A stretch of 64,000 nucleotides of DNA from Azospirillum brasilense (GTDB taxonomy: Bacteria > Pseudomonadota > Alphaproteobacteria > Azospirillales > Azospirillaceae), in assembly GCF_001315015.1 (NCBI RefSeq), contig NZ_CP012916.1, positions 450,001 through 514,000 on the forward strand. Direction: 5' to 3'. The translations under genes were made by a program, and so were the position numbers. The notes below the pieces were generated by a model. The model did not search any database and was not told the DNA's origin. It was given only the letters and a program-made list of their open reading frames with translations. Shown one piece after another: positions 46,308 through 59,766 of this stretch. Positions within the stretch are counted from its first letter, which is position 1; every line of letters starts with the position of its first letter.

Positions 46308-46549
46308 ATTCCCTGACGGGTGCGGCAGAGCGTCACGCCGGTCCCACAGTAAAGAGAGCCCATTTCTCCGAAGCACGATCAATGGAAGGGACCAATTGTT
46401 GGATCAACAGCACCTTGTTGCTGAATTGCCTAGATCACTCCCAATTTGGCCTATGCCGTTGACGGGGGAGACTTTGACGGCGTTCCTGTCGCACTGTGCC
46501 CGGGGGCGCCGATGCCACGGCGCGCCCATGGAAACGGGAGCGCCGGTGC
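46308..46549. promoter_or_regulatory. Gap upstream of cheC, probable promoter region
   Basis: A 242-nt region without a gene. Its middle (about 46380-46450) is AT-richer, with a small hairpin CAGCA-CCTTGT-TGCTG. It presumably holds the promoter for the cheC-kinase-regulator unit, but I cannot assign boxes. Confidence 0.35.
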
Positions 46550-47191
46550 ATGGTTGATCTGAGCGACCTCGAGCGCGACGCGCTGACCGAACTGGTGAAC
46601 ATGGGCGTGGGCCGTGCTGCGACCCATCTCAGCCGCATGGTCGCCGACCAGGTCCTGCTGTCGGTTCCCTCCATCGAGATCGTCAGCCGCAACGATGCCG
46701 CCAGCCTTCTGGCCGCGCGTGAGAAAATGAGCCTCGTCGCCGTCGAGCAGCGTTTCGACGGCTCCTTTTCCGGCCGCGCCCTGTTGATCTTTCCCGAGAC
46801 CAACAGCCTGGAGCTGGCCCGCGCCGTCCTAGGCAGCGATCTGAGCCTGGAGGAGATCGTCGATCTGGAGCAGGATGCGCTCGCGGAGATCGGCAACATC
46901 ATCCTCAACGGCTGCTTGGTCGTGATGGCCAACACGCTGAAGGACAACCTGGACATCTCGCTGCCCAGCGTGCTGCGCGGCGACAGCGATCGCATCTTCC
47001 AAAGCAACGGACCAAACCCCGATGAGCTGGTGATGTTCCTCTACATCGACTTCCTGATCCGCAGCCGGAGCATTCGCGGCTACATTGCGTTGCTCATGGG
47101 TCTGTCGTCTCTGGAGTCGCTGAAGGGACTGATCCATGGATTCATCGACCGCATCGCCTCCGGGACGCCCGATGGAACCGACCGAGTTTAA
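46550..47191 (+). CDS. cheC: CheC-family chemotaxis phosphatase
   Basis: A 213-residue CheC/FliY-type protein. CheC removes phosphate from CheY-P. Both active-site repeats are visible and complete: ERDALTELVNMGVG near residue 10 and EQDALAEIGNIILN near 105, each with the D-x3-E-x2-N pattern. It is a paralogue of the CheC at 58515-59153. Its end overlaps the histidine kinase gene by 20 nt, so it is likely to act on the response regulator of the same unit or on the nearby che operon. No CheD partner is in view. Confidence 0.9.
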   Translation: MVDLSDLERDALTELVNMGVGRAATHLSRMVADQVLLSVPSIEIVSRNDAASLLAAREKMSLVAVEQRFDGSFSGRALLIFPETNSLELARAVLGSDLSLEEIVDLEQDALAEIGNIILNGCLVVMANTLKDNLDISLPSVLRGDSDRIFQSNGPNPDELVMFLYIDFLIRSRSIRGYIALLMGLSSLESLKGLIHGFIDRIASGTPDGTDRV

Positions 47192-49025
47192 GCGCATGCC
47201 TTGGCTGGACGGCCTTCTCGACGCAATGGACGCCGGCATCGTCGTGCTGGACCGCCATGGCCGCGTCCAGTTCTGGAACCGTTGGATGGAAAGAGCGTCG
47301 GGCACCTCCGAACCCGACATCCACGGGCAGGAACTGGTGGAAGCCCTGCCTTCCCTGCGCGACACGCGGCTGCACAACGCCGTGCGCGACGTGCTGGAAA
47401 CCGGGGCACCCAGCGTCCTTTCGCACACGCTGAACCCGGTGCTGTTCCCACTGCGCTGCACCGACGGGCGACGGATGGTCCACAACGTGCTCATCCGGCC
47501 CTTCATCGTCAGCAACGCGTCCTATTGCCTGATCCAGGTGACCGACGTCACCGCGGTGGTCAATCGGGAACGGGTTCTGCGCGAACAGCGCGACGCGCGC
47601 TACCGCGCCATCGTTGACACCGCCCCTGACGCCATCGTCACAACCGACACGCGCGGCGTCGTGCAATGGGCCAACGGGGCCGCCGCCCGGCAGTTCGGCT
47701 TTCCGTCCAATGAGCTGATCGGCCAGCATGTCAGCCTTTTCCTCGCCGAAGGCTCCCCCGACTGGTCCGGGCTTCTGGAGCGCGACCCTGCCGGGCGTCC
47801 CGCCCCGGTGGAGCTGATCGGGCGCAAGCGCGACGGCACCCGCATCGATCTTGAGGTCTCGCTGGCCCGTTGGGAGTCGGAAGGGCGGAGCTTCATCACC
47901 GGCGTCCTGCGCGACATCACCGAACGCCGCCGCACCCGCGAGGAGTTGAAGGCGAACGCACTCGCCATGCGCCAGCTGGCCGAGCAGACCAAGGCCACTC
48001 TGGACGCGCTGCCTGCGCACATCGCCGTGCTCGATCACGGCGGGCACATTATTTTCGTCAACAAGGCCTGGGTCGAAAGCGGGGCCCACGCCGGCTTCCT
48101 CGGCGACGGGTCGGCCATCGGCGACGATTATCTGGAGGCCTGCGCCGCCACCCGCAGCGGAGCGGAGCATGCCGACGCGCTGATCGAGGGGCTGCGCGGC
48201 CTGCTGCGTGGGGGGGCGCCGGTGTCCATCGAGTATCCGGGCCTGTCCGACACCGGGCCGCGCTGGTACCGCTGCCTCGCCGCACCGATGGCCGCCGGCC
48301 CCTTCGGCGGGGCGGTGCTGATGCACATCGACGTCACCGAGATCAAGTCGATGGAAGCGACGCTGCGCAAGCTGGTCGGGCAGAAGTCCACGCTGCTGCG
48401 CGAAGTGAACCACCGGGTGAAGAACAGCCTGCAACTCGTCTCCAGCCTGCTGACGCTACAGACCATGAGCCTTCCGGGTGCCGCCGAGCGGGTTCATTTC
48501 CAGGACGCCCGCAGCCGCATCGACGCCATCGCGCGGGTGCACAGCCGGCTGTACCAGACCGAGCAGTTCCAGACCATCGAGTTCGGCAGCTACCTGAACG
48601 AGCTGTGCGCCGACCTGTCCCGGGCGTCGGGAGGCGACACGCTGGGCTCCATCGAGGTGCGGGCGGAGCGCGTCGACCTGCCCATCGATCAGGCGGCACC
48701 GCTGGGGTTGATCGCCAACGAACTGATCACCAACGCCATCAAGCACCGCGGGTCCACACCCGCCAACGTCTTGGTGTCGCTCGACCGGACCGACGACTTG
48801 CTGGCGCTGACGGTGACTGACCAAGGCCCCGGCCTTCCCGCCGGGTTCGACATGCGACGGTCACGCAGCCTCGGCATGCGCTTGATCACCAGCCTGACCG
48901 GTCAGGTCGGGGCGACGGTCACGCTGATGCCGGTGGAGCGGGGCACCTCCTTCCGCATCGCGCTGACCATGCCGGAAACGCGCGGCCCCATCCTGGAAGA
49001 CAGCGCGGCGGAGTGGAACGGATGA
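47172..49025 (+). CDS. PAS-containing HisKA_2-type sensor kinase
   Basis: A 617-residue soluble kinase with no membrane segment. Three PAS-like domains are seen: about 10-115 (DAGIVVLDRHGRVQFWNR), 145-260 (APDAIVTTDTRGVVQWANG) and 275-395 (IAVLDHGGHIIFVNKAW). The phospho-acceptor is His414 in LREVNHRVKNSLQLVSSLL, the HisKA_2 signature. The ATPase domain has LIANELITNAIKHR and DQGPGLPAGFD. Kinases of this class often pair with a single-domain regulator, and one follows with ATGA overlap. The cheC gene in front suggests cross-talk with chemosensing. Confidence 0.92.
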   Translation: MEPTEFKRMPWLDGLLDAMDAGIVVLDRHGRVQFWNRWMERASGTSEPDIHGQELVEALPSLRDTRLHNAVRDVLETGAPSVLSHTLNPVLFPLRCTDGRRMVHNVLIRPFIVSNASYCLIQVTDVTAVVNRERVLREQRDARYRAIVDTAPDAIVTTDTRGVVQWANGAAARQFGFPSNELIGQHVSLFLAEGSPDWSGLLERDPAGRPAPVELIGRKRDGTRIDLEVSLARWESEGRSFITGVLRDITERRRTREELKANALAMRQLAEQTKATLDALPAHIAVLDHGGHIIFVNKAWVESGAHAGFLGDGSAIGDDYLEACAATRSGAEHADALIEGLRGLLRGGAPVSIEYPGLSDTGPRWYRCLAAPMAAGPFGGAVLMHIDVTEIKSMEATLRKLVGQKSTLLREVNHRVKNSLQLVSSLLTLQTMSLPGAAERVHFQDARSRIDAIARVHSRLYQTEQFQTIEFGSYLNELCADLSRASGGDTLGSIEVRAERVDLPIDQAAPLGLIANELITNAIKHRGSTPANVLVSLDRTDDLLALTVTDQGPGLPAGFDMRRSRSLGMRLITSLTGQVGATVTLMPVERGTSFRIALTMPETRGPILEDSAAEWNG

Positions 49026-49420
49026 AGATCCTTCTCGTCGAGGACGAGGTCCTCATCGCCATGGAGCAGAGCTTCTACCTGGAAGCCGCAGGGCACGAGG
49101 TGCACGGGCCGGCCTCCACCAGCGAAAAGGCGCTGCTCCTGGCGCAGGAGGTCAAGCCGGATCTGGCCTTGGTGGACATCCATCTCGCCCAGGGCTCCAG
49201 CGGCATCGACGCGGCCCGCCGGATGACCGCGCTCGGCATCCCCTGCCTGTTCGTCACCTCCTACCGCGAGGAGGTGGAGCCGACGCGCGAATACGGGGTG
49301 GGCTGCCTGCCCAAGCCCTTCTCGCAAACCTCGCTGGTCTCCGCGGTCGAGGCGGTCAGCGCCATCCTGGCCGGGCGGACGCCGACCAAGGTCCCCGACA
49401 CGATGGAGCTGTTTTCCTAG
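49022..49420 (+). CDS. Single-domain response regulator
   Basis: A 132-residue receiver. The acidic pair is in LLVEDEV, the phospho-acceptor Asp52 in ALVDIHL, and the Lys in CLPKPFSQ. The stretch after Asp52 (HLAQGSSGIDAARRM) is the pattern of regulators paired with HisKA_2/HWE kinases. It is translationally coupled to the kinase by ATGA overlap and is the last gene of the unit. It converges on the STAS gene, 42 nt away. Confidence 0.92.
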   Translation: MKILLVEDEVLIAMEQSFYLEAAGHEVHGPASTSEKALLLAQEVKPDLALVDIHLAQGSSGIDAARRMTALGIPCLFVTSYREEVEPTREYGVGCLPKPFSQTSLVSAVEAVSAILAGRTPTKVPDTMELFS

Positions 49421-49462: not shown

Positions 49463-49702
49463 CTATCGCTTGCCCAGCGCCGGCATGACCCAGCCCTTGA
49501 GGAAGGCGTCCTCCGGAGGCACCGCAACCGGTTTCCCTGCCGCCAGCAGCACCTGAAGCAGCGCGGTGTGCAGGGCGGTGCAGCCGCCGAGGTCCAGCCG
49601 GGGCTCCTCCACAGCGCATAGCCATTCGGCCAGCGGGATAGCCTCATCCACCGTGCAGGCACCTTCGAAACGGGCGGTGCGGTCCTCGAAACGGATGGGC
49701 AT
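49463..49702 (-). CDS. STAS-domain protein
   Basis: A 79-residue single STAS domain, the fold of anti-sigma-factor antagonists. The pattern VDEAIPLAEWL...RLDLGGCTALHTALLQVLLAAGKPVAVP is typical, with the conserved Ser/Thr position occupied by Thr in GCTALHT. The ATG overlaps the cheA stop by one base (TGATG); a GTG one codon earlier is possible. It is the last gene of the che operon. STAS proteins occur at the ends of several alternative che clusters, possibly as CheA substrates; that role is inference. Confidence 0.82.
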   Translation of the reverse strand: MPIRFEDRTARFEGACTVDEAIPLAEWLCAVEEPRLDLGGCTALHTALLQVLLAAGKPVAVPPEDAFLKGWVMPALGKR

Positions 49703-51867
49703 CACATCAGCTCCCGCAGATTGAGGGCGAGCAGAAGGCTCCCGTCGCCGAGCACCGCCGTGCCGGCGTAGCCGCGCAGCCGGGCGAGCAGCCCGGTCAT
49801 CGGCTTCAGAACCACCTCGGCGCGCTCCCGGAAGGCGTCCACCACCAGCCCCACTGGCTGCCCGCCGAGGTCCACCAGAAGCACCGCCTCCCCGCTGCGC
49901 TCCCGCTCGTCCTCCGGCAGATTGAGCAGGCGGCGCAGCCGCAGGAGCGGCACCACTGTATCCTGCACGACGACACTCTCCGCGTGCTTCATCCGGCGGA
50001 TCGCACCGTGGGGAACGCGCTGCATGCCGGTGACCAGCGTGACCGGAAAGCCGTAGAGAGCGCCCGCCGTCTCCACCATCACCAGCCGGGTGACCATCAT
50101 GGTCAGCGGCAGGACGAGGCGGAAGCGCGTCCCGGCGCCAGGGGTCGAGGCGACCTCAACCCGTCCGCCCGCCTGTTCCACCGCGCCGCGCACGGCGTCC
50201 ATCCCCACCCCCCGGCCCGACAGGTCCGACACCATGGCCGAGGTGCTGAGCCCCGGGAGGAAGATCAGGCGCAATGCCTCAGCTTCGTTCAGGGCCGCCG
50301 CCTGCTCCGCCGTCAGGGCGCCCGCCGCCACCGCCTTGCGGCGCACCGCCTCCGCGTCGATGCCCGCCCCGTCGTCGGAGACCTCCACCACCACGCCGCC
50401 GCTGTCCTGGAAGGCCTGGACGCGGATGGCGGCCACCTCCGGTTTGCCGGCGGCGCGGCGGCGCTCCGGCGCCTCGATGCCGTGGTCCAGCCCATTGCGG
50501 ACAAGGTGCAGCAACGGCTCGCCCAGGATGTCGAGAATGTCCTTGTCCGCCTCCGTCTCGCCGCCGGAGAGGTGCAGCTCGACCGGCTTGCCGAGCCGCC
50601 GCGCGGTGTCGCGGACCAGCCGGGGCAGCGGGTCGAAGACGCGCGACAGGGGCAGCAGCCGCAACCGCAGCACCGCGTCCTGCAGATCTCCCACGATGGA
50701 ATCGATGCGGCCGTGGGCTTCCTTGATGCCCTGTGCCAAAGCATCGGCACTCCGCCCGTGCTGCGCCTCGCGCGCGAGGTAGGGCAGGCTTCCCTTGGCG
50801 ACGACCAGTTCCCCGACCAGGGCCATCAGCCGGTCCATGCGCTCCGCATCCACCCGCAGCGTCCGCCGGGCCTGGAGCGGTGAAGCGGCGGGCGCTGCCG
50901 GAGCAGCCTCAGCCAGGCCTTCGATGCAGCGGATGAGCGCGTCCGCCGGGCCGTCGGCGGCACGGTCCAGAGGCGGCGCTTCGGCATTCCGTCCCTCGGC
51001 GGCCAGGATGTTGCGCACCGCCCGCAGCACCGCTGGCCGGCGCGCCGCCGTTTCCGCGTCGCTGCCGGGAAGGCCGAGGATGCGCGCCTGTTCCCGCAGC
51101 ATGGCCGTGGCGAGGCTGGCCGGCGCGGCCTGGGCGGGGATCGCGACCGTGGCGAGGGACAGTTGATCGGGAACGCCGCGGAACAGGCGGGCCAGCTCAT
51201 CCTTCGAGGCGCCGCTGAGCGCGCGGAAGCGCAGGGCGCAACGGTAGGGGTCGAGATCCGTCAGCGGCGGCCACGCCCCGGCGGCCTCGACACGCAGCAG
51301 CAGCAGGTCCGGGATGCGGCGGCACAGGTCGAGTGGATCGTCCCCGGCGAAGAAGCAGTCTTCCGCGGGGTCATAGGCGATGGCGGTGACCGTGCGCCCG
51401 GCGGCCTTGGCCCGCTCGGCCTCCGGCAACTCGTCCACCCAGGCGAATCCAGCGGGCGCGCCACCGTCGGCGGTTTCGGCCGAGTCGCCGAGGGCAGCAC
51501 GCAACCCTGCCTCCTGCGCCCGCGCGCGGGTGTCGGCGTCGTCGGGAAGGGACTGGCTGAACTCCAGCCCATCGACCCACGCCGCACCGGTGTCGAGCAA
51601 CTCCAGCAGACGGTCGGCCAGATCCCCGCTCATGGCGGCGCGCCCATCGCGCACGGCCATCAGAGCGTCCTCGCCGGCATGGACCATGCGGGTGAAAGGC
51701 GCCATGTCGAACAGGGCGGTGGCGCCCTTCAGCGTGTGCAGCGCACGGAACAGGTCGTTGACCGCGGCCGTTTCGGTCGGATCGCGCTCCAGCCGCAGCA
51801 GGGCGGCGCCCGCCGCCTCCAGCAACTCCCGCGATTCCAAGACGAACTGCTCGAACAGCGCACTCAT
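49702..51867 (-). CDS. cheA: Chemotaxis histidine kinase CheA
   Basis: A 721-residue CheA. The Hpt domain is at 1-110 with phospho-acceptor His44 in ALHTLKGATALF. An unusual central domain follows at about 150-260 (YDPAEDCFFAGDDPLDLC, FRGVPDQLSL). Then come the dimerisation/kinase core (VGELVVAKGSLP, LLHLVRNGLDHGIE, VSDDGAGID, SGRGVGMDAV) and a C-terminal CheW-like domain ending with LALNLRELM. The middle domain is not the usual CheY-binding P2. It overlaps cheY and the STAS gene. It should phosphorylate the CheY and CheB of this operon. Confidence 0.95.
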   Translation of the reverse strand: MSALFEQFVLESRELLEAAGAALLRLERDPTETAAVNDLFRALHTLKGATALFDMAPFTRMVHAGEDALMAVRDGRAAMSGDLADRLLELLDTGAAWVDGLEFSQSLPDDADTRARAQEAGLRAALGDSAETADGGAPAGFAWVDELPEAERAKAAGRTVTAIAYDPAEDCFFAGDDPLDLCRRIPDLLLLRVEAAGAWPPLTDLDPYRCALRFRALSGASKDELARLFRGVPDQLSLATVAIPAQAAPASLATAMLREQARILGLPGSDAETAARRPAVLRAVRNILAAEGRNAEAPPLDRAADGPADALIRCIEGLAEAAPAAPAASPLQARRTLRVDAERMDRLMALVGELVVAKGSLPYLAREAQHGRSADALAQGIKEAHGRIDSIVGDLQDAVLRLRLLPLSRVFDPLPRLVRDTARRLGKPVELHLSGGETEADKDILDILGEPLLHLVRNGLDHGIEAPERRRAAGKPEVAAIRVQAFQDSGGVVVEVSDDGAGIDAEAVRRKAVAAGALTAEQAAALNEAEALRLIFLPGLSTSAMVSDLSGRGVGMDAVRGAVEQAGGRVEVASTPGAGTRFRLVLPLTMMVTRLVMVETAGALYGFPVTLVTGMQRVPHGAIRRMKHAESVVVQDTVVPLLRLRRLLNLPEDERERSGEAVLLVDLGGQPVGLVVDAFRERAEVVLKPMTGLLARLRGYAGTAVLGDGSLLLALNLRELM

Positions 51868-52262
51868 GACCGTCCCTCACGTCCGGTCAGCAGGCGGGCG
51901 GCGGCGGTGAGGTCGGCGGGACGCACCGGCTTGACGAAATACCAGTTGGCCCCGGCGAGCAGCGCCTTCTCACGGTCGCTGTCCTTGGATTCGGTGCTGA
52001 TCATGATCGCCGGCACGTCCCGCAGGGTCTGCTCCTGCCGGAGGCGACGCAGCATGGTGTAGCCGTCCATCTTCTGCATGTTGATGTCGACGATCAGCAG
52101 ATCCGGCGTGGACGCCAGCGCGTGCTCCAGCCCGTCGAGCCCGTTCACCGCCTCGTCGACCCGAAAGCCGTCGGCCTCCAGAACCTGCCGGGTATAGGCC
52201 CGGACGGTCACGGCGTCGTCCACCACGAGAACGCGGGGTTGCGGGTCTGGTCGATCGGTCAC
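51864..52262 (-). CDS. cheY: CheY-like response regulator
   Basis: A 132-residue receiver with acidic pair VVDDAVTVRAY, phospho-acceptor Asp59 in LIVDINMQKMDG, a Ser in MISTESKD and the Lys in YFVKPV. The layout is that of CheY. The start is 12 nt after the cheR stop and the stop overlaps the cheA ATG, so it is coupled to its kinase. The output target, flagellum or other, cannot be told from sequence. Confidence 0.93.
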   Translation of the reverse strand: MTDRPDPQPRVLVVDDAVTVRAYTRQVLEADGFRVDEAVNGLDGLEHALASTPDLLIVDINMQKMDGYTMLRRLRQEQTLRDVPAIMISTESKDSDREKALLAGANWYFVKPVRPADLTAAARLLTGREGRS

Positions 52263-52274
52263 CGGGCGGCCTCC

Positions 52275-53135
52275 TTAACTCTGGGGCTTCTGATAAAGGA
52301 TGGCGTCGGGGAACCGGCGCGGCACGAAAAGGGAAGACATCCGACTCATGCTCTCCGAATGGCCGAGGCAGATGAACCCGCAAGGCGACAGCGCGTCGTA
52401 GAACATCGACGCCGCCTCACGCCGCCCCAAATCGTCGAAATAGATCAGCAGATTGCGGCAGAAGATGACATCGATGCCACGGAAATTCGCCATCTGCTGC
52501 GGATCGGCGATGTTCACCAGCGAAAAATCGATGGAGTCCCGCAACTCCTCCATGATCTGCCAGCTCTGGTCGTCCAGCCGGGTGAAGTATTTGGCGACGA
52601 GATCCCGCGGCATGGCTTGGAGCGACCGTTCCTCGTAAATGCCCTCGCGTGCGCGGGCCAGCACATGGCTGTCGATGTCGGAGGCGTAGAGTTCGATCTC
52701 GAAATCATCCACCCGGCTCCACCGCTCCAGCAGTGTGATGGCGATGGAGTAGGGCTCCTCTCCAGTGGCGCAGCCGGCCGACCAGATGCGCACACGGCTG
52801 CCCGGCGCGCGCCCGCGCACCACCTCGTCCAGCGCAGCGTTCACCAAGCAGTCGAGCTGGTACATCTCGCGGAAGAAATAGGTCTCGTTCACCGTCATGC
52901 GGTTGACGAGAAGCTGCAACTCTTCCCCCGACGCTTGGAATCGCAGCAGATTCAGGTATTGGCGGACATGCTCGATGCCGACCGCCGCCATCCTCTCCGA
53001 CACGCGGCGGTCGACGAAGTAGCGTTTGGCCTCGGTGAAGGACAGGCCGGTGCGTTCCCGCAAGAACCGGCAGAAAGCGTCGTAATCCGCGGCGCTCAAG
53101 GCGCCGCCGGCGCTCTTGTCCAAAGGCGGCGTCAT
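52275..53135 (-). CDS. cheR: Chemotaxis methyltransferase CheR
   Basis: A 286-residue CheR, which methylates glutamates of the receptor using SAM. The N-terminal helical domain contains FCRFLRERTGLSF and the basic RVSERMAA patch. The SAM loop is IWSAGCATGEEPYSIAI and the later VIFCRNLLIYFDD motif is present. Its start directly abuts the HEAT gene stop. The receptor in the same operon is the likely substrate. Confidence 0.95.
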   Translation of the reverse strand: MTPPLDKSAGGALSAADYDAFCRFLRERTGLSFTEAKRYFVDRRVSERMAAVGIEHVRQYLNLLRFQASGEELQLLVNRMTVNETYFFREMYQLDCLVNAALDEVVRGRAPGSRVRIWSAGCATGEEPYSIAITLLERWSRVDDFEIELYASDIDSHVLARAREGIYEERSLQAMPRDLVAKYFTRLDDQSWQIMEELRDSIDFSLVNIADPQQMANFRGIDVIFCRNLLIYFDDLGRREAASMFYDALSPCGFICLGHSESMSRMSSLFVPRRFPDAILYQKPQS

Positions 53136-53753
53136 TCAGGCTCCGGAAAACAGGCGGCGCGCCGCATCGATGGAAAAGGCGACAAAAGGATCGTCCGGAA
53201 AACGCCCGCCGAGCCGTTCCACGACCGTCAGAGCCGCGGGATCACCGCTTTCCATCAACGCCTCCACCGCGGAGAGGCAGACGTTGACGTGCGGGTCATG
53301 GTCGATCACTCCGGCCAAGAGGTCCAGCCGGTCCGGATGGGGCAGCTTCCCGACGAGTTGGGCCGCGAAGATGCGCAGGTCCGAATCCGCGGCGGTCAGC
53401 AGCGGGGTAACCTCCGGCATCACCACGGCGGCGGGCATCTGCTGGAGGCTCTCGATCACGCCGTTGCGCAGCCCGACGTCTTCGCTCACCAGATGGGGAG
53501 CCAGCGCCGCGGCGGCCTCCGCGGTGCCGGTGCGGACCAGAGCGGTGAAGAGGGTTTCGCGGACGCTTGGGTCCTTCTCCCGCGCCAGCCTCGCGGACAG
53601 GGCGGGAACGGCGTCGGGACGCTCGCCGAGCGCGTGGGCAGCCCGGCGGCGCAGGGCCGGATCGGCGTCCTCCAGCAACGCCAGCGGATCGCCGTCCTCC
53701 ATGGCGGCCGCGGGCTTCGCTCCATCGATCTTCCGTGCCTTCACCAGGGCCAT
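53136..53753 (-). CDS. HEAT-repeat protein of the che operon
   Basis: A 205-residue protein built from about five HEAT-like helical repeats, seen as ADPALRRRAAHALGE, DPSVRETLFTALVR, DVGLRNGVIESLQQ, DSDLRIFAAQLVGK and DPHVNVCLSAVEALME. The N-terminus, MALVKARKID, is nearly the same as that of the chemoreceptor at 58440 ([10 protein letters not shown]). It sits between cheB and cheR. HEAT proteins in che clusters may act as scaffolds; the exact role is unknown. The shared N-terminal motif suggests that both proteins are brought to the same place. Confidence 0.82.
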   Translation of the reverse strand: MALVKARKIDGAKPAAAMEDGDPLALLEDADPALRRRAAHALGERPDAVPALSARLAREKDPSVRETLFTALVRTGTAEAAAALAPHLVSEDVGLRNGVIESLQQMPAAVVMPEVTPLLTAADSDLRIFAAQLVGKLPHPDRLDLLAGVIDHDPHVNVCLSAVEALMESGDPAALTVVERLGGRFPDDPFVAFSIDAARRLFSGA

Positions 53754-53781: not shown

Positions 53782-54867
53782 TTATCCCCTCACCCACCGC
53801 GTCACCTGCTGGGCCACCCGGTCGGACGGCAGCACCATGTCGGCGCCGCCGCGGCGGATCAGTTCCTGCGGCATGCCGAACACGACGGCACTGGCCTCCG
53901 CCTCCGCGATGGTGCGCCCGCCCTGGCGGCGCAACTCCGTCATCGAGGCCGCGCCATCCGACCCCATGCCTGTCAGGAGAACGCCGATCAACCGTGATGG
54001 TGCAATGGCGCGCAGAGCGCTCTCGACCAGCCGGTCCACATTGGGATGCCAGTTTCGCCGCTCGTCCGCTGGAACGGGCTGGGCGCAGAGCCGCCCACCG
54101 CGCCGGACGATCTGAAGATCGGCACCGCCGCGCGCAATGCAAGCCATCCCCGGCTGGAGCGCGGTGGCCGCCGCAGCCTCCACCACCGTCACCGCGGAAA
54201 TGATGTCAAGGCGGCGGGCCAGCGGTCCGGTGAAGCTGGCAGGCATGTGCTGGGCCACCACCACCGGCCAGGGAAAGTCCGTCGGAAGAAGCGGCAGGAT
54301 ATCCTCCAGGGTGCGCGGCCCGCCGGTGGACACGCCGATCAGCACCAGCCCTTCGCTCGGATCGCCGTCGCTGTCGGCCACGGTCTGCGGCTTGGAACGG
54401 GGAACATCGGCCAGGAAATCCTCTCCGACAATACGCTCCCGCGCCCGGCGCAGCCGTTCCCGCAACCCTTGGACCCGGCGAGGCCGGGACCCGGCGGCGG
54501 CGCGCACGGTGTCGACCAGCTCTTCGGCGATGCCGGCGATGGCGCCGACCCCGGTCGGCTTGCGCACCGCCTCCACCGCCCCCAGCCGCAGGGCCTCCAG
54601 CGTCACCTCCGCCCCGTCCGCGGTCAGGGCGGATACCATCACCACCGGTTTCGGATGCTCGATCATGATGCGCTTCAGGCAGGCGAGACCGTCCATGCCG
54701 GGCATCGTGACGTCCAGGGTCACCACATCCGGATCGAAGCCGGACAGCCGTTCCAACGCTTCCGCACCATCGGCGGCGGTTTCCACCTCGAAACCGGCGG
54801 ACGAGAGGATGTCGCCGATGCGCCGCCGCATCAGCGCCGAATCATCGACGACCAGAACCTTCAGCAT
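53782..54867 (-). CDS. cheB: Chemotaxis methylesterase CheB
   Basis: A 361-residue CheB with a receiver (about 1-120; Asp in VTLDVTMPGMDG) and a C-terminal methylesterase/deamidase. The catalytic Ser is in IGVSTGGPRTL, the His in VVAQHMPASFTGPLARRLD and the Asp in LLTGMGSDGA. It removes methyl groups placed by CheR on the receptor. It lies between the triple CheW gene (18 nt) and the HEAT gene (28 nt) in one operon. Confidence 0.95.
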   Translation of the reverse strand: MLKVLVVDDSALMRRRIGDILSSAGFEVETAADGAEALERLSGFDPDVVTLDVTMPGMDGLACLKRIMIEHPKPVVMVSALTADGAEVTLEALRLGAVEAVRKPTGVGAIAGIAEELVDTVRAAAGSRPRRVQGLRERLRRARERIVGEDFLADVPRSKPQTVADSDGDPSEGLVLIGVSTGGPRTLEDILPLLPTDFPWPVVVAQHMPASFTGPLARRLDIISAVTVVEAAAATALQPGMACIARGGADLQIVRRGGRLCAQPVPADERRNWHPNVDRLVESALRAIAPSRLIGVLLTGMGSDGAASMTELRRQGGRTIAEAEASAVVFGMPQELIRRGGADMVLPSDRVAQQVTRWVRG

Positions 54868-54885: not shown

Positions 54886-56448
54886 TCAGACGGTGGCCAG
54901 CAGGTCGGCAAGCTGGTCCATGTCCAGCAGTTCCGCCGGGTCCATCAGCAGGATCATCCGCCGCTCCCCGGCGCTTTCCACCGCGCCGATGCGGCGGATC
55001 AGCCGGTGCTGGGCCTGCGACACGACGGGGGCCGGCCCGATCACGCCGTCCGGAATGCGGACGATCCCAGCCATGCCGTCCACCAGGAGCCCGGCGCGGG
55101 CCGCTCCCGCGGCGATCACCACCACGCGGCCCCGATCGCCTCCGTTCTCCCGCCCTTCCGGCAGACGCAGCAGGCGGCGCAGCGCGACCAGCGGCAGGAC
55201 GGCGCCGCGCAGCGTGGTCACGCCGCTGACGAAGTCCGGCGCGTTGGGCAGCGGAGTCACGGCGTCGGGCTGGCGCAGCACCTCCTGCACCGCCCCGACC
55301 GGCAGGCCGTATTCCGCCCCGGCCAGCCGGAACACCACGAAGGCCTCCGCCCGCTCCGCCTCCATTGCCACAGCCGTCTCTCCTTCGCGCCCTTGGGCAT
55401 GGATGCCCAACCCGGCGCCATTGCCCGCGCCATGACGGAACAGCCGTTCCGCCGACAGGACCGGGATCAGCCGCGCGCCGCCGTCCAGCCGCGCGATGCC
55501 GTCCATATCCTCGAACTCCGCCTCGCGCGCCATCAGCGGCGGCACCGGGTCGATCCGTTCACGGGGAACGCGCAGGATCTCCCGCACATCCTCCACCACC
55601 ACACCGACCTGCCCCTCCGCCGTGCGCAGAACCGCCACCTTTCCACGGCCCCGATCCGCCGTGGCATCGAGCGCGGCGTCGAGCCCGAACAGCATCCGCA
55701 GCCCGACCAGGGGAAGCAGCGCGTCGCGCAACGTCATCATGCCCAGAAGATGAGGGCGGGCGCGGGGGACGCGGGTCACCGTCTCGGGAACCGGAACGAC
55801 CTCCCGCACCGCCGCCACGGGCAACGCGAACTCCTGTTCCGCAACGGTGAGGACGACGAGTTGTTCCTCGTCCTGGCTCGCCGCGGCAACAGTCTTCGGC
55901 TGGGGCGCCGCGCTGAAATCGGCGCTTCCCGCCGTCACCCGCCCAAGGTCGGCGAACTGGCGCTCGATCAGCGGGCCGGGGTTGAGGATCAGGGCACCCT
56001 CCCCCGCGGCCCCGTCTCCGGCCAGGATGGCGCCGGCCAGAAGATCGGCGTCGATGGACGGATCCGGCGCCGTCGCGGAGTCGGCGATGCGGTCCTCGTC
56101 CACGGCGGACAGGCCCGACACGCGGTCCACCAGCAAGCCGACCGGCTGGCCGGTGTGACGGATGATCAGCAGCCGCGCCGCCTTCGTCTCCCCATCAACG
56201 GTTCCACCCTCCCCGCCCCTGGTCCCGGCTCCAGCAAGGCCCAGGACCCGGCGCAGCCCGATGACCGGCAGCACGGCGCCGCGCCGCCGTGCCAGCCCTT
56301 CCAGGCTGGGCGGCCCCAGCGGGATCGGCACCAGGGCGGGCGGACGCAGGATTTCCAGCACGCTGTCCAGCGGCAGGGCCAACCCCATGCCGCCGACCGT
56401 GAAGAGGACGAAGGAACGCACGCCGTCGCGGCGGATGATCGCGGCCAT
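54886..56448 (-). CDS. cheW: Triple-domain CheW coupling protein
   Basis: A 520-residue protein made of three consecutive CheW domains, about 13-150 (VLFTVGGMGLALPLDSVLEI), 190-310 (VLTVAEQEFALPVAAVREV) and 365-480 (VVFRLAGAEYGLPVGAVQEV). An ordinary CheW has one domain of about 150 residues and links CheA to receptors. Here it is the only CheW in the operon, so one chain may span several positions of the array. The domains differ clearly from one another, so they are not a recent triplication. It is encoded between the receptor and cheB. Confidence 0.92.
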   Translation of the reverse strand: MAAIIRRDGVRSFVLFTVGGMGLALPLDSVLEILRPPALVPIPLGPPSLEGLARRRGAVLPVIGLRRVLGLAGAGTRGGEGGTVDGETKAARLLIIRHTGQPVGLLVDRVSGLSAVDEDRIADSATAPDPSIDADLLAGAILAGDGAAGEGALILNPGPLIERQFADLGRVTAGSADFSAAPQPKTVAAASQDEEQLVVLTVAEQEFALPVAAVREVVPVPETVTRVPRARPHLLGMMTLRDALLPLVGLRMLFGLDAALDATADRGRGKVAVLRTAEGQVGVVVEDVREILRVPRERIDPVPPLMAREAEFEDMDGIARLDGGARLIPVLSAERLFRHGAGNGAGLGIHAQGREGETAVAMEAERAEAFVVFRLAGAEYGLPVGAVQEVLRQPDAVTPLPNAPDFVSGVTTLRGAVLPLVALRRLLRLPEGRENGGDRGRVVVIAAGAARAGLLVDGMAGIVRIPDGVIGPAPVVSQAQHRLIRRIGAVESAGERRMILLMDPAELLDMDQLADLLATV

Positions 56449-56469: not shown

Positions 56470-58440
56470 TCAGCCGGCCCCTTGCAGTTCGTCGGCCATG
56501 GCGGCGATCTCCTCGATGGCGGCGGCCAGTTCCTCCGCACCCTTTGCCTGCTCCCGCGCGGCCTTGGCCGCTTCGTTGGCCGAGCGGTTGGCTTGGTTGG
56601 CCACGGCGGCGACTTGCTCCACGCCCTTCTGCGCCTCCGCCACGGCGCGCTGCACCTCGCCCGCGTTCTCGACGATCTCGCGGCTGCCGGAGATCACGGT
56701 GCGAAGGTCGGCGATGGCGGCGGCGAGGCTGCTGGCGAACTCCTGGTGGCGCAGGGACTGGCGCGCCGTCTCGCCCCCGATGTCCTCGATGTCGCGGCGG
56801 ACGCGCCCGATCTGGTCCTGGATGGCGTGAACGATGTCCTTGACCCGCTCCACATTCTCCGAGCTGTCGCGGGCGAGATTGCGAATGTCGTTGCTGACGA
56901 CGGTGAAGCCGCGTCCGAACTCCCCGGCCCGCGCCGCCTCGATGGAGCCGCTGACCGCCAGCATGCCGGTCTGGATGGCGATGATGGAGATGGCATCGAC
57001 CACCTTGTCGATGCGCCGTCCGATCTGCTCCATGGCGCCGATCCGCTCCACCGTGCGGCGGCTCGCGCCCACCGCCTCGCCCACCCCGGCGGTCAGCGCG
57101 CCCACCATATCCTGCGTCTCGGACAGCAGCGCCTCCAGGCCGACGCAGCGCTGAAGCGCCTCATCGGCACGGGTGTGGCTGAGCCGTGCGCTGGCCTCGA
57201 TCTCCGCGATGGCACTGCTGGACTGGTGGGTCGCCGCCCCCTGGGCCTGGGCGCCGCGGGAGATCTGGGTGATCGCCGCCATGATCTGGGCGGCGGCGCG
57301 GTTGATTTCCTCGATGGCGGCGGAGAGTTGCTCGGCGGCGGAAGCGAGATCCCCGGCGGCGCGGTGGACGTCGGTGTTGCCGGTCAGCTCGTCGGCGAGA
57401 TCGGAGAGCTGGCCGGCGGCCTGCTCGCTCTGGGCCAGCGCCTTGGCCTGTTCGCCGACCGTCTTCAGCGCCTCCTCGCTCGCCGCCGCCTGCTCCTCCG
57501 CGGCGGAGGCGACGCTTTCAGCACCGCGCTGCGCCTCCCGCCCGGCCGAATCGGCCTCCAACGCGGCCTTGATGGTCTCCTGGGCGCCGCGGGCGATGTC
57601 CCCCATGCCGTCGCGCACCCGGTCGAGCTGGGTGGCGATCTGGCGGCCCCGCTCCACCTCGGTCTTGGACGCGTCGGCGCCGGCCACGATGCTCTCCGCG
57701 ATAGCGCCCACCGCTTTCTGAATCTCCGCGACCATGCGGTTGATCTCGTTGGCGGAGCGTTCGGAGCGCTCGGCCAGGGCCTGCACCTCGTCGGCCACCA
57801 CGGCGAATCCACGCCCGGCATCGCCCGCGCGGGCTGCCTCGATGGCGGCGTTCAGCGCCAGGAGGTTGGTCTGATCGGCCATGACCGCCACACCCTCCAC
57901 GATGGTGCCGATCTCCGCCGCCTGCCGCTCCAGGTCGCGGACCAGGGCGACAGCAGCTTCCTGCCGCGTGGCGGCTCGGACCAGCCCATCGACGGAGGCG
58001 AGGATCTGCCCGCTGACCTCCTTCATCAGCGTTTGCAGCGCCTCGATCCGCGACAGCGAGGATTCGGCGTTGCCGCGCGCCCGGCCGATCAGGCTGGCGC
58101 TGCGGTCGATCATGCGCTGCGACTGCTGGGTGGCGCTGGCCGCCTCCTCCGCGCCGGCGGCCACCTGCTCCATCGCCTTGCGCAATTCCTCGGCGGCGGC
58201 GGCGGCCTGGGTCACGCCGCTGGCAAGCTCGTTCGACGCGGCGGCAATACCCTCCGCCGCCTTGCGCCGCCGGTTCCCGGCGCGGGCGCGCCGCCGCACC
58301 TCCGCCGCGCGGCGGGTCGACAGGGCGTTGTCGGGCTGGCTGGACAGTGCGGCCTCATCGGCAAGCGGAATCTCCTCGCCGAGGTCCGCACCGCGGGAGG
58401 CGCTTGCCGTGTCGATCCGCTTCTTCTTGACCAATGCCAT
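56470..58440 (-). CDS. Soluble chemoreceptor with two signalling hairpins
   Basis: A 656-residue receptor with no membrane segment and no recognisable sensor domain. The N-terminal 60 residues are charged. Two signalling tips are visible. The first, at about 187-220, is canonical ([20 protein letters not shown]). The second, at about 487-520, is altered ([20 protein letters not shown]). They are exactly 300 residues apart. Long heptad coiled coils lie before, between and after. This double-hairpin layout is known from DosM of Vibrio cholerae, which stabilises cytoplasmic arrays. The changed second tip suggests a structural role. The C-terminus has no obvious CheR-docking pentapeptide. Confidence 0.93.
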
Positions 58441-58514: not shown

Positions 58515-59153
58515 TCAGGCCAGCACCCGGCCGATGTAGCGCCCGATGGCCGCCTTCAGCTCCGCCGCGGACCCGGCGTCGAGCGCCAGGACGACGGTCC
58601 CCTCGACATCGTGGGGCGGCGTCCGGAAAGTGACGTGGAACAGGATCGCCTGCGCCTCCGCCGTCAGACCGACGCCGCAGCGTTCCAGAAAGCCGTCCCC
58701 CACGCCGCGCACGACCTGCGGCAGGGTGGTGCCGATCGCGACACCCAGCAGATTACCCATGGAGGACAAGCAGCTGTTCAGCACAATATTGCCGACCTCG
58801 GCCAGCGCCTCCTCCACCAGCTCCGCCGCGTCCTCCTTGGGGACACCGGGCGGCAGCGCGGCGGCGGCCAGCGGCAGACCGCTCCGTTCCGGCATCAGCA
58901 GGATGGCCGAACCGAGGAAGGCGCCGGACAGACACTCGGTCACCGCGATCAGCGGCCCCGGCAACGCCGACCGAAGCAGGCCGGACACCCGATCGCCGGG
59001 GACAAGGCTGACCATCGGGACGGAAATCTCCACCGGCCCGCCGATCATCCGGCTGAAAGCCGTGGTCGCCCGGCCGACGCCGATGTTCCCCAGCTCCGTC
59101 AGCGCGTCGCGTTCCAACTCGTCCAGGTCAATGCCCATGGAGGTCGGGCCCAT
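58515..59153 (-). CDS. cheC: CheC-family phosphatase of the che operon
   Basis: A 212-residue CheC paralogue. The first active-site repeat is ERDALTELGNIGVG; the second is VEEALAEVGNIVLN, with Glu where Asp or Ser is usual, so this half may be weaker. Alternative start at 59138 (MGIDLDELE). It lies 74 nt upstream of the receptor gene and 27 nt after the response-regulator gene, in the operon direction. It shares the N-terminal pattern DLDELERDALTEL with the CheC at 46550. Confidence 0.9.
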   Translation of the reverse strand: MGPTSMGIDLDELERDALTELGNIGVGRATTAFSRMIGGPVEISVPMVSLVPGDRVSGLLRSALPGPLIAVTECLSGAFLGSAILLMPERSGLPLAAAALPPGVPKEDAAELVEEALAEVGNIVLNSCLSSMGNLLGVAIGTTLPQVVRGVGDGFLERCGVGLTAEAQAILFHVTFRTPPHDVEGTVVLALDAGSAAELKAAIGRYIGRVLA

Positions 59154-59180: not shown

Positions 59181-59603
59181 TCAACCCGCGCTCCCGCCGG
59201 TTCCATTGTTGCCAGCCCCTTCATTGGACGACGGACGGCGCGGCAGACTGGCGGCGGCCAGGAAGCGGGCCATCTGCTCCTCCTCCAGAGGCTTGGGCAT
59301 GAAGGCGGCGCCCAGCGCGCGGATGCCGGACACCACCGAATCCTGGGCGTTGGCCGTGATGATGGCAACGCGGATGTCCGGCTTCACCTGCAGCAGGCGG
59401 GCGGCGGCCTCCAAGCCGTTGTCACCCGGCATGTTGAAGTCGATTATGGCGATATGGATATCACTTTCGTCGAGTTTTCCATAAAGCTCAGCGCTGTTCG
59501 CCGCCTCGATGACCGTCCAATCCGGCTTGTTCCGAAGTATTATGCCGCGGACATGCATGCGGGACAGCTTGCTGTCGTCCACGACGATTACGGTCTTGCT
59601 CAA
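59181..59603 (-). CDS. CheY-like response regulator, first gene of the che operon
   Basis: A 140-residue receiver with acidic pair IVVDDSK, phospho-acceptor Asp55 in AIIDFNMPGDNG, Thr in IITANAQD and the Lys in AFMPKPLE. It ends with a disordered tail (SSNEGAGNNGTGGSAG). No ATG fits; I choose a TTG at 59603 with CGGAG about 11 nt upstream, because the receiver begins right after it. It is the promoter-proximal gene of the che operon. Confidence 0.82.
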   Translation of the reverse strand: MSKTVIVVDDSKLSRMHVRGIILRNKPDWTVIEAANSAELYGKLDESDIHIAIIDFNMPGDNGLEAAARLLQVKPDIRVAIITANAQDSVVSGIRALGAAFMPKPLEEEQMARFLAAASLPRRPSSNEGAGNNGTGGSAG

Positions 59604-59766
59604 CGCTTGTGCTCCGGGAGGGGAGAAAATTTGAACTGTGGAACGATTATAACCACCGCCACGCCGCGCGCCAGCATGGATTGCGGTCCCCAATCAGCGT
59701 TTTTCGGCGCGCCTCCCCTTGGCCGCCCGTGGTGGCTTTGATAACAGAGAATCGGCCAACAGGGTC

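Follow-up and report, generated by a model that had tools for sequence, protein, structure and literature searches.

A probable DosM-type chemoreceptor of Azospirillum brasilense with two fixed, unlike signalling tips 300 residues apart and possible heterotypic packing

The window, by which we mean the whole 64,000-nucleotide stretch of DNA analysed, carries on its minus strand (56470–58440) a gene with an ATG start that encodes a chemoreceptor of 656 amino acids. Within it, Pfam (E 0.001) recognised two MCPsignal stretches and no other family, and a six-frame search across the genome scored the two matches at 105.6 and 75.3 bits, as the original prediction had expected of an HMM search. A sensor domain was found neither by Pfam at this threshold nor with NCBIfam, which returned only sub-cut-off receptor and SMC-like coiled-coil models. 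The highest hydropathy over 19 residues is 1.66 and lies at the second tip, where we read it as coiled coil, and the receptor is predicted to be soluble.

Using ungapped self-comparison (BLOSUM62), residues 57–350 aligned to residues 357–650 at an offset of 300 with a score of 337 and 81 identities in 294 positions, compared with −125 ± 72 at the other offsets between 250 and 305. The same offset stayed on top when the tip regions were excluded (219 vs −95 ± 65). The two halves of the receptor are a 300-residue tandem repeat along their length, and the tandem signalling domains, a feature of DosM membership, are confirmed by Pfam, six-frame search and self-alignment alike. The predicted exact distance of 300 residues between the two tips is borne out as well, the 11-residue peptides quoted for them lying at residues 190–200 and 490–500. 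The first tip (residues 190–215; 57796–57873, minus strand) carries the canonical L-N-A-A core and the second (residues 490–515; 56896–56973, minus strand) a family-specific V-x-G core.

The receptor is the third gene of a ten-gene operon on the minus strand. In this lineage the operon opens with a response regulator (59181–59693), followed upstream of the receptor by a CheC/CheX-type phosphatase (58515–59153), both identified by Pfam and both given a later start in RefSeq. Downstream lie CheW3, a protein of 520 amino acids with three CheW domains (54886–56448; three PF01584 stretches), and, by Pfam, CheB with receiver and methylesterase (53782–54867), a HEAT-repeat protein (53136–53753), CheR (52275–53135), a CheY-like response regulator (51864–52262) and CheA with Hpt, dimerisation, ATPase and CheW domains (49702–51867). 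The last gene, which encodes 79 amino acids (49463–49702), starts where cheA ends and overlaps it; its product has a sub-cut-off likeness to STAS_2 (E 0.005), and it is present in 62 of the 63 relatives in which the cheA match reaches the 3′ part. Beside the operon, the opposite strand carries a second CheC-like gene (46496–47191), a PAS-domain protein (47136–49025) and a response regulator (49013–49420), as named in the plasmid record.

The operon is located on an 825-kb plasmid of A. brasilense, and its stretch of 10.4 kb is identical (100%, full length) to plasmid p2 of A. brasilense MTCC4038, whose gene table labels the receptor 'methyl-accepting chemotaxis protein'. Genome-wide, 13 places with a CheW domain were found, which we read as four CheA clusters, and the triple CheW occurs in this cluster only. 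The remark that the only CheW is triple-domain thus holds within the operon and fails for the genome, where three of the 13 places are those of the triple CheW itself. A concatenated triple CheW adjoining the receptor is a feature of the F9 class of chemosensory systems, and with CheA, CheY, CheR and CheB all in the cluster the F9 feature is present in full rather than in part.

Strong matches to the receptor (E 1e-150 or better) were obtained in 34 of 37 genomes of the genus, its own included, in one of them (G011) as two pieces. Six of those genus genomes carry another receptor type of 50–52% identity, which is the sole type in G010. All six second-type receptors (L061–L066) adjoin CheW3, CheB, HEAT, CheR, CheY and CheA, one contig ending inside cheA; in four of these six stretches CheC and a regulator lie a few kb off. 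One of ten matches (L079) proved to be an ordinary receptor and was excluded.

Genome contigs scanned with the C-terminal half of the receptor gave at least 538 confirmed loci, of which we named the best 80, a set fetched partly by means of the second-tip pattern. These 80 loci come from alpha-, beta- and gammaproteobacteria, Desulfovibrio, Acidobacteriota, Actinoplanes and its kin, and Fervidicola. Searching around them with the window proteins (tblastn), we found CheW3 at 79, CheB at 78, CheY at 75, HEAT at 74, CheR at 73 and CheA at 72, the order of the operon being DosM-CheW3-CheB-HEAT-CheR-CheY-CheA. Missing matches were mostly those of short loci; in full-size stretches, L080 gave no HEAT match, and L116 none for HEAT or CheR. 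Seven of the 80 loci had no full open reading frame, start or strict second-tip motif and were dropped (L097, L100, L103, L105, L110, L112 and L153), of which L103 and L105 were later put back into the family set. One locus with its gene split in two (L067) was kept outside the family alignments and three exact duplicates were removed, and the final alignment holds 128 receptors, that of the window included, from Pseudomonadota, Actinomycetota, Acidobacteriota and Firmicutes.

Throughout this family the distance between the tips is fixed: the tip glutamates are exactly 300 residues apart in 127 of the 128 receptors, the sole exception being L059 with 304, and the homologues with equal spacing that the original prediction had proposed to look for do exist. 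Likewise, 300 was the best self-offset in 111 of the 112 members of the first family set and 304 in the last one, and the aligner placed no gap at all between residues 214 and 500 (48 sequences). The two tips are consistently unlike. In all 128 receptors the first tip has L, N and A at positions 196–198 and the second has V at 496 and G at 498, with N, S or T between them; position 189 is D in 127 receptors and E in one, the matching position 489 holds I, V or L, and position 507 is E or D throughout. The equivalents of the Tsr trimer contacts E385 and R388, and that of F396, are invariant in both tips, and that of V398 is kept in 128 first and 127 second tips (correspondences taken from the available parts of PMC8466855 and PMC8144572, the remaining numbering by counting). 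The equivalent of N381 in the second tips is N in 84, S in 39, the window protein among them, and T in five. By the title of a study, N381 is said to be a key trimer contact.

The LAVxG motif was found in none of the 50 other receptor places in the genome; in the 49 with a readable tip the core reads L-A-L-N in 48 and L-A-M-N in one (L189). The idea of a second tip peculiar to this genome or genus is ruled out by the family-wide conservation. Judged by this conservation, the second tip is a stable type in its own right and a fixed feature of the family. The claim that it had lost its LNAA core is thus literally correct, L-N-A-A being replaced by V-S-G-S, and misleading as an oddity, V-x-G being the normal state.

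Since the second-tip pattern had been used in fetching the named set, selection bias was possible and we therefore used the triple CheW as a tip-blind bait, in 398 genomes of Pseudomonadota and in 394 from the order to which G334 belongs, with some overlap between the samples. Full-length CheW3 was present in nine genomes besides that of the window, and in all nine the neighbouring receptor has two tips 300 residues apart with LAVxG in the second. Partial CheW matches were not counted as CheW3: a fragment in G243 on a 3.7-kb contig, on which no receptor tip was found, weaker matches in G429 and G352, and the other 34 of 38 in the second sample. In G225 a receptor lies on a 3.7-kb contig with no CheW3 match.

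An AlphaFold2 monomer model, computed from 49 sequences (48 of 73 named proteins and the window protein), reached a mean pLDDT of 88.5 and a pTM of 0.65. It predicts a low-confidence, disordered N-terminus (residues 1–38, beginning MALVKK, pLDDT below 50), a helix from 39 to 354, a break at 355–357 and a second helix from 358 to 655, the tips causing no break in the helices. The break is mostly S-T-D in the family (102, 99 and 109 of 128 at its three positions) and N-T-D in the window. Foldseek matched the model to the receptor hairpins 2ch7_A (E 6e-4, 5.2 Å over 298 columns) and 3g67_B (E 0.03, TM 0.85 on the target, 2.5 Å over 205 columns), and at least one tip is therefore predicted to fold as a receptor hairpin; no sign appeared of a fold lacking the second hairpin, which, like a single signalling domain, was to have counted against the original prediction. 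Fragment 214–500 modelled alone (47 of these sequences) broke at the same point and matched, among others, antiparallel coiled coils such as the MukB elbow, SMC arms and receptor hairpins. As this is to be expected of an isolated helix pair and is biased towards a hairpin, we take it as weak support from a model.

Covariation was scored along lines of residue pairs set beforehand, in which positions summing to about 414 and about 1014 were positive controls for contacts within each hairpin and those summing to about 714 would place the first hairpin against the second; a parallel line, at 300, joined them in the first run. In that run (112 sequences), pairs near 714 were sharply over-represented among the top pairs. 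Plain mutual information gave lines too broad for use alone. With 128 sequences and 60 simulations of unlinked sites on the family tree, the mean scores of the 714 line, the 300 line and both controls exceeded those of all simulations. Among the top 200 pairs, eight fell on the 714 line, against a null mean of 3.7 and a count reached by three of the 60 simulations, six on 1014 (reached by none), and four on 414 and five on 300 (reached by 23 each).

The test was also run for each pair of helices (20 letters, 128 sequences, 85 simulations, pairs within 40 residues being left out for helices 2 and 3). Along the 714 line, helices 1 and 4 gave z 6.7 and helices 2 and 3 gave z 7.0, each ranking first of 21 lines; along the 300 line, helices 1 and 3 gave z 5.6 (first) and helices 2 and 4 gave z 3.7 (third). 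For comparison, the within-hairpin controls reached z 4.9 (first) and 7.8 (second) and the four negative central lines 0.8, 2.3, 1.2 and 2.6. With residues merged into nine groups (100 simulations), the heterotypic lines fell to z 4.2, 2.2, 2.4 and 1.8 (ranks 2, 4, 4 and 4 of 21), next to 3.8 and 6.3 for the controls and 0.9, 2.6, −0.4 and 4.0 for the negatives, the last of these, helices 2 and 3 at +150, ranking first.

Set against 34 shifted lines with 20 letters, the heterotypic lines ranked 1, 1, 1 and 3 of 35, and measured against the real spread of these lines the signals were weaker (z 2.4, 5.5, 2.9 and 2.0; controls 2.6 and 3.3). They ranked first in all four cases when the 39 'g_' sequences (genus members and one from G050) were left out, where three of the four negative lines also ranked first with z of about 1.5 to 1.6, and likewise after redundancy was reduced to 80% identity; at 70% (42 sequences) the ranks were 3, 1, 1 and 6 of 35. 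In half-samples of 33 sequences the signal was unsteady, and the effective number of sequences in the family alignment is only 80. Overall, these results point to a covariation signal between hairpin 1 and hairpin 2 that appears real but moderate, and they make it somewhat likelier than not that pairing is heterotypic, each dimeric tip combining a canonical with a variant subunit.

Contacts on the 714 and 300 lines together would correspond to a receptor four-helix bundle to which subunit A contributes hairpin 1 and subunit B hairpin 2. Two shapes would yield such contacts, namely an antiparallel dimer of extended rods and one chain folded back at residues 355–357. An antiparallel dimer rod spanning both baseplates, with both ends alike, is the shape we tentatively prefer, although we put it at somewhat under an even chance; we prefer it because of the published reading of DosM as an extended rod and because no length change occurs at the break. 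In Vibrio cholerae, DosM is described as an extended rod, carrying a signalling domain at either end and joining two CheA/CheW3 baseplates (PMC7534058, in excerpt), and these baseplates are 35 nm apart (PMC3964821, in excerpt). A single-chain pseudo-dimer with its turn at 355–357 would hold both tips at one end and bridge no layers, and it predicts the same contact lines. In its favour, the conserved S-T-D break resembles a helix cap and is the only place where AlphaFold2 interrupts the helices, three of the four helices extend about 147, 149 and 148 residues from the tips and would end level, and engineered single-chain Tsr~Tsr receptors function (PMC4692393, in excerpt). A surface turn should nevertheless tolerate changes in length, of which there are none between the tips in 127 of 128 receptors, and published tomography has been interpreted as a rod bearing a signalling domain at either end (PMC7534058, in excerpt), so that we hold the folded-back chain to be unlikely. 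Array height was set aside as a judge between the two, as both should measure about 45 nm from tip to tip before baseplate overlap, reasoning from the spacings in the available part of PMC3964821.

Ordinary receptors pair homotypically as a rule. A parallel homodimer rod that follows this rule would pair first tip with first and second with second, and would be polar, with differing baseplates or differing rods within them. The absolute distinctness of the two tip types and the weakness of the covariation with nine groups and in small samples would both fit such a rod. It predicts, on the other hand, no off-centre covariation between the hairpins, where with 20 letters the signal on lines 714 and 300 roughly equals that of the within-hairpin controls, and top views of V. 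cholerae arrays show an identical hexagonal arrangement near both baseplates (PMC3964821, in excerpt); we judge a parallel rod to be as improbable as the folded-back chain. What likelihood these three arrangements leave over belongs to mixtures and to error. That the second domain is a decaying relic no longer binding a baseplate could be argued from a core that departs from the usual L-N-A-A, and is contradicted by second tips in which V, G, E, R and F never vary (128 of 128) and the V398 equivalent is kept in 127, across several phyla, which leaves it a very slight chance.

The receptor and the HEAT protein share a near-identical start, MALVK (58402–58440 and 53715–53753, both minus strand), the HEAT protein beginning MALVKARKID. 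A motif written after this pattern was noticed (M, small, hydrophobic, an optional residue, basic) is found in 48 of 69 receptors and 53 of 72 HEAT proteins, compared with 1 of 78 CheW3, 6 of 76 CheB, none of 72 CheR, none of 76 CheY and none of 28 CheA. Each N-terminus was set at the first ATG following the preceding gene; rows whose start fell over 240 bases away from its expected place were left out. Such a start, conserved while the stretch behind it varies, suggests that both proteins carry a docking peptide, perhaps for the same partner. We did not count one further comparison, limited to loci classed on both sides: short-form receptor N-termini (LKK) go with short-form HEAT proteins in six of seven cases and long-form ones in nine of 37 (Fisher p 0.004), much of which is driven by related Alteromonas-type loci.

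Taken together, we consider it probable that the receptor is a DosM scaffold of an F9 system, with no recognisable sensor and with fixed unlike tips, perhaps packed heterotypically as an antiparallel rod. Under this proposal, the tips would insert into CheA/CheW3 baseplates and keep the two layers of a cytoplasmic sheet joined at a fixed height. Since CheA, CheY, CheR and CheB are encoded alongside, kinase output and methylation would be possible. Input to the array would come through methylation by CheR and CheB and presumably from other receptors with canonical tips, because published descriptions have DosM acting in concert with other receptors of the array (PMC7534058 and PMC9321776, both in excerpt). 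As a guess, one tip type may serve trimer contact and the other CheA/CheW3 binding. It is about an even question whether this is a natural hetero-tipped receptor, in which every dimer sets a canonical tip beside a V-x-G tip, by way of antiparallel 45-nm rods or of fold-back, and in which the 300-residue spacing is a ruler that keeps the ends in register.

What F9 systems do is little understood. Should the two tips be permanently unlike and paired, the inner and outer roles within a receptor dimer would become separable in a natural protein, a separation for which engineered fusions had been built in E. coli (PMC4692393, in excerpt), and if this is true there would be a division of labour between tips beyond the reach of ordinary homodimers. 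The 300-residue spacing, the V-x-G tip, CheW3 and the HEAT protein offer sharp, testable marks of a cytoplasmic two-layered array in a soil bacterium that is harmless and genetically tractable.

With regard to known systems, the double signalling domain, the lack of a detectable sensor, the adjoining triple CheW and the F9 gene order lead us to regard the receptor as very likely the DosM of an F9-class chemosensory system. A published study describes F9 systems as DosM with a triple CheW, finds 98% of the DosM homologues studied to be without sensors, and places a full F9 cluster in 64 of 2781 species, about 2% of the bacterial species examined (PMC9321776, in excerpt). The original prediction, which had pointed to the DosM layout of V. 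cholerae, was right in this respect and is partly supported as an interpretation: the altered second tip, missing sensor domain and triple-domain CheW, which it had listed as departures from DosM, are respectively invariant among the 128 aligned members, the usual state of DosM homologues and a published signature of the class. The kind of receptor is thus already known. As far as we have seen, the fixed tip asymmetry, heterotypic packing and N-terminal peptide common to the HEAT protein have no printed precedent; the fixed tip difference, the exact 300-residue spacing and heterotypic packing were not found in the partial texts searched, which did not include the primary 2016 DosM paper, so that the latter may contain some of them.

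In A. brasilense, four chemosensory systems have been described, of which Che2 comprises ten predicted proteins including CheC, with CheA2, CheW2, Cle2, Cle3, CheC and Tlp32 detected (PMC8561660, in excerpt). The window operon likewise has ten genes, and the triple CheW lies in this cluster alone among the CheW-domain places of the genome; equated by composition, it is most likely Che2. Tlp32 was not found named as DosM in the literature searched, and the available part of a cryo-EM study of A. brasilense assigns no array to Che2 (PMC6759762). The V. cholerae DosM (VC1403, F9 or cluster I) is cytoplasmic, with two signalling domains and an adjoining concatenated triple CheW (PMC7534058, in excerpt), as here; it was compared by its published description, and its second tip is expected to be V-x-G at the same 300-residue spacing. 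Unlike the V. cholerae type, the Azospirillum operon has CheC and a regulator ahead of the receptor, which tblastn found at just two of the 80 named loci, and it ends after cheA and its small neighbour without a second receptor, whereas 33 of the 80 show a further receptor-like match on the same strand there. The nearest engineered counterpart, the single-chain Tsr~Tsr of E. coli, resembles DosM in having two receptor subunits per chain and differs in sitting in the membrane, in joining two subunits of the same kind and in having an added linker, whereas DosM is natural and soluble and has two kinds of tip (PMC4692393, in excerpt).
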